Below are positions 29,655 through 30,409 of a DNA stretch of 34,611 bases, piece after piece. This DNA comes from Candidatus Scatousia excrementigallinarum (lineage in GTDB: Bacteria; Cyanobacteriota; Vampirovibrionia; Gastranaerophilales; Gastranaerophilaceae). The notes under the pieces are model-generated. The model searched no databases. It was not told the DNA's origin and was given only the letters and a program-made list of their open reading frames with translations. Location of the stretch: the NCBI GenBank assembly GCA_018711035.1, contig DVIU01000111.1:1-34611 (forward strand). Reading direction: 5' to 3'. The position numbers were made by a program, and so were the translations under genes. The first letter of the stretch is position 1. The number at the start of each line of letters is the position of its first letter.

Positions 29655-30053
29655 AAGAAACACTCCTCAATTAGATATTACACAAACAATTATACCCGAA
29701 ACACAAAAAAAGAAAACCTGCCGGTATGCAGCGACAGGCGTCAAGTATATCAAACGTGAAAACCATTATAAAAAGTGTACATAGCTTTTATAGGGAATAA
29801 GCTCACCGTATTTTAAACCAAACCCGCTAAAGAAAAATCTTATCGCAACCCCGAAAAAGTGCCTGGATACAGTAAGCTTACTTAATTATAATAACGCTTT
29901 TTCAAGGGTATTTCACCCTCCCCGAGAATAGATTTTGTCAAATAAAAATAACATTCAATGATTAATTCTAAAGAATTAGATAAAAACTCTTGCAAAAAAA
30001 TTTTTTTTATATTAAATTGAAAAATGTAGCAGGGAACTGCAACAGTAAAATAG

Positions 30054-30082
30054 AATAAAGTTAAGCGGAAGTAGCTCAGTTG
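30054..30082 (+). repeat. 29-nt duplicate of the tRNA-Gly 5' flank and 5' end
   Basis: AATAAAGTTAAGCGGAAGTAGCTCAGTTG identical to 30153-30181, 99 nt upstream. Confidence 0.95.
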
Positions 30083-30163
30083 CCGCAGTGGAGTCGGAGA
30101 CGAAACGTATTTCATAATAGGCTCTACCAACTGAGGTTCCTCCAAAAAATTTAATAAAGTTAA

Positions 30164-30236
30164 GCGGAAGTAGCTCAGTTGGTAGAGCTTCTGCCTTCCA
30201 AGCAGAATGTCGCGAGTTCGAGTCTCGTCTTCCGCT
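30164..30236 (+). tRNA. tRNA-Gly(TCC)
   Basis: GCGGAAG TA GCTC AGTTGGTA GAGC T TCTGC CTTCCAA GCAGA ATGTC GCGAG TTCGAGT CTCGT CTTCCGC T forms a full cloverleaf with anticodon TCC. Confidence 0.96.
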
Positions 30237-30382
30237 TTTTTAGTACTTTCTCAACAGAACATACGACTCGAACTACGTTCTTGGCACGCACGCAGATTTG
30301 TAAAGCTCACTATCGCTTGCTTACAAATTCTAGCTGGCTGCATACACAATTCTACGCAATCAAGATTGCTTGAATTGTTGTA

Positions 30383-30409
30383 TCTCGTCTTCCGCTTTTT
30401 TAGTACTTT
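30383..30409 (+). repeat. 27-nt duplicate of the tRNA-Gly 3' end and its flank
   Basis: TCTCGTCTTCCGCTTTTTTAGTACTTT identical to 30223-30249, 160 nt downstream. Confidence 0.95.

Follow-up and report, generated by a model that had tools for sequence, protein, structure and literature searches.

Mobile GC clusters and double-hairpin elements of mitochondria are small hairpin DNAs that are scattered, some of them in RNA genes. In bacteria, REP elements and the REP-associated tyrosine transposases (RAYT, TnpA-REP), which are related to IS200/IS605, are the closest described system. According to PMC2817692 and PMC3733652, REPs are short palindromes of several families that lie within and between genes, and the inserts reported here resemble them in these respects. 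Rickettsia palindromic elements (RPEs), some families of which are called REP-like in PMC3733652, are likewise short palindromic repeats of bacterial genomes. Phages, ICEs, and islands that integrate at tRNA genes are also comparable, since partial tRNA copies bracket the insert and an intact tRNA is kept (PMC9897764). Here I describe an arrangement at tRNA genes of Gastranaerophilales that is real, recurrent in this order, and apparently undescribed; no description of it was found in the literature searched, in which most subscription journals were not covered.

Direct and inverted copies of tRNA ends at a tRNA-Gly gene

The window, i.e., the whole stretch of 34,611 nucleotides analyzed in this study (contig DVIU01000111.1 of Candidatus Scatousia excrementigallinarum), has a tRNA-Gly(TCC) gene at about 30163-30237 (ARAGORN; Rfam RF00005, 73 bits). 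The intact tRNA spans 30164-30236 on the forward strand, and both of its flanks hold one tRNA-end unit each. On the 5′ side, a repeat search revealed a partial copy on the same strand (30047-30082), which consists of a leader (30047-30064) and tRNA nucleotides 1-18 (30065-30082) and stops in the D-loop (..CTCAGTTG). The initial annotation had reported a 29-nt duplication of the 5′ end. This core (30054-30082 and 30153-30181) is exact and is part of a longer direct repeat of 36 nt, of which 34 are identical (30047-30082 versus 30146-30181). Inside the D-loop of the partial copy lies an insert of a family designated F1 (CCGCAGTGGAGTCGGAGACGAAAC + GTATTTCATAATAG; 30083-30120, forward strand). It is followed by a segment (30121-30143, reverse strand; repeat search) in which the D-arm of the intact tRNA and some of its acceptor strand recur in inverted orientation. 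This inverted arm is 23 nt in length, is 87% complementary to the D-arm at 30166-30188, and matches its own tRNA at 16/18 positions. A second leader copy (30144-30163, forward strand; sequence and repeat search) stands immediately ahead of the intact tRNA. The 5′ insert is predicted to form a stem-loop, and folding of the whole 5′ unit has z = -2.3.

On the 3′ side, the repeat search located two forward-strand copies of the tRNA 3′ end with its T-run, the first including the flank (30223-30249) and the second being terminal (30383-30409). The 27-nt repeat noticed earlier is thus exact (27/27), and it can be extended to 34 nt at 91% identity. In the segment between the two copies, an inverted T-arm (CGACTCGAACT, about 30264-30274) and then the T-arm start GTTC in direct orientation (30277-30280) were recognized by eye within 30263-30280. 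Next comes an insert of another family, F5 (TTGGCACGCACGCAG .. CTAGCTGGCTGCATAC .. TTGTA; 30281-30382, forward strand), for which a multi-hairpin structure is predicted. The inverted T-arm matches its own tRNA at 12/20 positions, no better than it matches some other tRNAs. The inverted arms between the direct copies had escaped the initial annotation. In an Rfam search of the window stretch and six unit-bearing loci, with T-box included in the test, the tRNA alone scored above the gathering score.

Empty and filled sites at the same gene

Is the same tRNA-Gly gene filled in related genomes? As the initial annotation had proposed, the locus was compared among relatives, and empty sites were indeed found. 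Two genomes of the same genus, G012 and G002, have an identical tRNA whose leader and 3′ end are single copy, meaning that both sites are empty. The tRNA-flanking sequence and the start of the downstream gene in the window contig are common to these two genomes. At the orthologous gene, four 5′ units were found in G011 and three each in G003, G005, and G008; the window genome (G000), G004, and G009 have a single one, and there is none in G001, G002, G007, G010, or G012. Six same-genus assemblies besides that of the window accordingly carry one to four tandem 5′ units. Since independent assemblies share this architecture, which also recurs at many tRNAs, both chance and the assembly artefact that had been a concern are excluded. 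The distribution is uneven, the number of units ranging from 0 to 4 within a single genus, rather than being an identical arrangement conserved in distant relatives with no sign of insertion.

Several contigs end inside unit arrays, so longer arrays probably exist. In G011, the ends of contigs C4, C8, C10, and C12 fall inside tRNA-Leu(CAA) and tRNA-Met arrays, and the last 62 nt or so of C10 recur at the start of C8, indicating that the arrays are longer than assembled. Both tRNA annotation and short-read assembly can fail at such units. The window genome amounts to 2.81 Mb, split over 304 contigs; its contamination is 7.8%, and it gave five matches to reverse transcriptase. Its relatives are about 2 Mb.

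Units at other tRNA genes

Nearly all tRNA genes of the well-assembled G011 and of the window genome were scanned for partial self-copies. In G011, these were found 5′ of 6 and 3′ of 7 of the 42 tRNA genes, versus 1.2% and 0.1%, respectively, when the flanks were exchanged between tRNAs as a control. The window genome has them at 2/37 (5′) and 1/37 (3′) tRNA genes. A strict 5′ pattern (D-arm start, 22-52 nt, and inverted D-arm) matched 13 of 193 genomes of the order. It also matched 12 of 387 genomes sampled throughout the phylum, all 12 belonging to the same order. The reversed pattern, which served as the control, gave zero matches, and the 5′ pattern had no match in viral contigs.

Units were found at Gly, Val, Lys, Arg, Asp, Trp, Ala, Pro, Met, Tyr, Glu, Leu, and other tRNAs. 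In addition to the tRNA-Gly gene of the window, a tRNA-Pro gene of G074 is flanked by units at both ends. Their anatomy is recurrent, with a period of about 100-200 nt. A 5′ unit runs from the leader and tRNA nucleotides 1-18 through the insert in the D-loop, a short loop, and the inverted D-arm and acceptor to the second leader and the intact tRNA. A 3′ unit starts with the intact tRNA, a terminator or T-run, the inverted T-arm, and a short loop; the T-arm start, the insert in the T-loop, and the remaining tRNA 3′ end with its flank follow. In most cases the 5′ inverted arms match their own tRNA at 15-17 of 18 positions, and for Arg, Trp, Asp (locus L041), Ala, and Pro-CGG the own tRNA ranks first of about 72. 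The 3′ inverted arms fit their own tRNA poorly and are often non-specific. Every unit keeps an intact tRNA, as expected from the earlier suggestion of a miniature element that restores the tRNA end.

Insert families inside and outside tRNA units

Homologues of the F1 insert were found in 5′ units of Gly, Val, and Lys tRNAs, and similar hairpins in those of Arg, Asp, Trp, Ala, and Pro; F1 was seen at tRNA 5′ units only. The F5 insert of the window is 85% identical to an insert 3′ of tRNA-Gly(TCC) in G038, which belongs to another family of the order, and in both cases the flanking duplicate is local to each genome. The F5 core is also present 3′ of tRNA-Pro in G074. In the window genome, the F1 and F5 inserts are single copies. 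The T-loop of tRNA-Gly(TCC) contains inserts of different families from one genus to another, which indicates that this site was struck more than once. Together with the empty and filled sites, this bears out the hotspot proposed initially.

A third family, F2 (CCTCTC..stem..GATACTYAATC..stem..GGCAGAGT), is about 41 nt in length and was found in 10 of 13 genomes of the genus, with one to eight exact-pattern copies per genome. Its stems show compensating changes. F2 is located in tRNA 5′ and 3′ units and in unrelated places, including the start of pilin-like genes. At L139, L150, and L153 of G009, type IV pilin-like genes have F2 and other short palindromes just ahead of their GFTLAEV start, and some of these sites are near long poly-G tracts. 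The palindromes and poly-G tracts suggest phase-variable or hypermutable pilin leaders in G009.

The remaining family, F3 (GCGGATTTGCG..GGAGCAAATCCAAGA), occupies T-loops of 3′ units at Glu, Asp, Lys, and Gly tRNAs. Outside tRNAs, it was found in one hairpin loop, after two stop codons, and within F2. An alignment of 16 F3 sequences gave a branched structure with compensatory changes in 14 of 29 pairs. F3 has no matching Rfam family, and no target duplication was seen at the junctions that could be read. At L170, L177, and L175 (~1500), F3 starts where a protein-coding gene ends, right behind its TAG stop codon; judged by inspection, that gene is ssb-like in two cases and encodes a ribonucleotide-reductase-like C-terminus in one. 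The idea that F3 is an intron of coding genes was rejected, as no reading frame supports it.

RAYT genes and other candidate enzymes

Proteins of PF01797, about 179 amino acids in length, are encoded in 102 of 289 genomes of the order, and their closest solved structure is TnpA-REP (4er8, E 7e-24). Among the 31 best-scoring RAYT loci, 10 are near a tRNA versus 1.8 expected from one genome (P ~6e-6). A tRNA is present in nine of the 31, and the tenth locus adjoins a tRNA-Met array across a contig break. In G011 and G005, RAYT genes lie beside F2-bearing units of tRNA-Met and tRNA-Leu, and one RAYT gene of G011 has F2 on both flanks. In G095, the F2 of a second tRNA-Phe unit contains a RAYT gene and a GTAG-type palindrome. 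A palindrome of this type (GTTGGGC..CCCAACCTAC) also lies within a tRNA-Arg unit of G101. RAYT genes adjoin tRNA units at L213:183-719, L214:1463-1999, L215:846-1349, and L243, and GTAGGTTGGGG..CCCCAAC palindromes occur in and around the RAYT genes of these four loci.

It is likely that RAYT mobilizes F2. By hypothesis, it might also mobilize the window's own inserts. F1, F3, and F5 are not GTAG-type REPs. Y1 transposase (Y1_Tnp) was not detected in the window genome, nor in several other unit-bearing genomes of the genus. Reverse transcriptase was rejected as the mobilizer, since the five in the window genome have no counterpart in the unit-rich G011, G003, G005, G008, and G004. Ten window proteins scanned around the tRNA have no integrase domain, and inserts of about 100 nt are too short to encode one.

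Possible origin of the units

What generated these units? In the explanation I consider best, and to which I give roughly even credence, REP/MITE-like palindromic elements accrete at tRNA genes and the tRNA end is rebuilt locally, the enzyme and the rebuilding step being inferred. In this view, each unit consists of a small, structured, palindromic mobile element that sits in the D-loop (5′ unit) or the T-loop (3′ unit) of a partly duplicated tRNA end; the arm usually recurs next to it in inverted orientation, and the duplicate rebuilds the gene, leaving an intact tRNA. The inserts may move as single-stranded hairpins via a RAYT/IS200-like Y1 transposase. Where an insert enters one strand of a tRNA arm, repair would proceed by fold-back copying, leaving one arm with the insert and an inverted arm without it. 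The resulting direct repeats would allow gain or loss of units through slippage or unequal recombination. Mobility is here read from between-species comparisons. In favor of this explanation are the direct and inverted copies, the empty sites and tandem arrays, the recurrence at many tRNAs, the own-tRNA fit of the 5′ inverted arms, the insert families with their covarying stems, and the RAYT genes near tRNAs; against it stand the missing Y1 transposase of the window genome, the inserts that are not GTAG-type REPs, the confinement of F1 to 5′ units, and the poor fit of the 3′ inverted arms. It is possible, but rather doubtful, that RAYT-type hairpins insert single-stranded into tRNA-arm loops and that fold-back repair both duplicates and rebuilds the end in an unrecognized mode of transposition, for which essential single-copy tRNAs would be safe landing pads and in which the 5′ unit would act additionally as a competitor of pre-tRNA folding.

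Such folding competition is the core of another reading, in which the 5′ units act as leader-RNA switches that control maturation of the tRNA. Of three strands, namely the partial copy (1), the inverted arm (2), and the 5′ half of the real tRNA (3), the second would pair with either the first or the third, so that the 1:2 and 2:3 helices exclude each other. The hairpin insert would sense or bind something. All the 5′ units lie between an apparent promoter and the tRNA and should therefore be transcribed, the 5′ inverted arm matches its own tRNA well, and compensating stem changes in the hairpins were seen by eye between loci. In a model restricted to equilibrium folding, the predicted cloverleaf falls from 0.81 for the tRNA alone to 0.22 with the native window unit, versus 0.67 with both arms shuffled, and similar shifts are predicted in most of 29 cases. 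The 5′ unit is thus predicted to compete with the cloverleaf at equilibrium, and a regulatory role is possible. A switch is nevertheless unlikely to explain the units as such, given that units built in this way are also found 3′ of tRNAs, often past a terminator, that the insert sequences are poorly conserved and interchangeable, F2 and REP elements included, and that units are missing in close relatives and vary in number from 0 to 4. The idea that the inverted arm neutralizes the partial copy was unsupported at equilibrium, where the predicted cloverleaf usually goes up once that arm is shuffled.

The two remaining readings appear improbable. A full tRNA flanked by partial copies is the usual mark of integration (PMC9897764), and arrays ending in one intact tRNA resemble accretion, so that the units might be miniature elements of a tyrosine recombinase at tRNA att sites, left as scars or accreted in tandem. 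A plain attB scar, one of the options raised by the initial annotation, was not supported, however: the periods of about 100-200 nt compare with 9-23 kb in PMC9897764, the ten scanned proteins lack an integrase domain, integration does not produce inverted arms, the insert lies inside a loop of the partial copy, and units lie on the 5′ side as frequently as on the 3′ side. A purely mutational origin, equally improbable in my estimate, would be template switching at the palindromic tRNA arms with fold-back duplication and expansion by slippage, the inserts being incidental filler. Template switching does leave inverted and direct partial copies, and direct repeats readily give tandem copies, but the inserts belong to recurring families common to tRNAs, genomes, and non-tRNA sites, one of them with a covarying structure.

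Comparison with known systems

Small palindromic elements appear to exploit essential tRNA genes from either side, and the gene survives. How do these elements compare with those already described? Like the units, integrative elements have a partial copy of the tRNA at the distal end of the insert and keep the tRNA intact. They differ in having an integrase gene in or beside the element; the units here have neither genes nor an integrase, are far shorter in period, use 5′ ends as often as 3′ ends, and have inverted arms. The D-arm sequence CAG^TTGG is similar to integron attC, a folded hairpin whose AAC/GTT ends are conserved, but by inspection the tRNA-Pro unit has no GTT. The mitochondrial elements belong to other organisms, and the likeness to them is by description alone. 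RPEs, to which the position of F2 at the start of pilin-like genes adds a point of resemblance, are set apart by the tRNA-end duplication, the tandem arrays, and the inverted target arms of the units.

The REP/RAYT system is alike in that RAYT genes exist in the order, beside or inside some units, and in that a GTAG-type palindrome is found in a tRNA-Arg unit. On the other hand, the inserts at most tRNA units have no GTAG head (by inspection, F1, F2, F3, and F5 are without an unpaired head of this type, which only the palindrome of the tRNA-Arg unit has), they reach about 120 nt with a branched structure, and F1 and F5 in the window genome are far below the usual REP copy numbers. The inserts also lie within partial tRNA ends accompanied by an inverted arm, an arrangement that does not appear in the accessible parts of PMC2817692 and PMC3733652. 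How REPs choose their targets is an open question in REP biology, for which the RAYT genes beside and inside tRNA units provide concrete loci. The arrangement is best filed under the known small palindromic mobile elements, as a variant of them.
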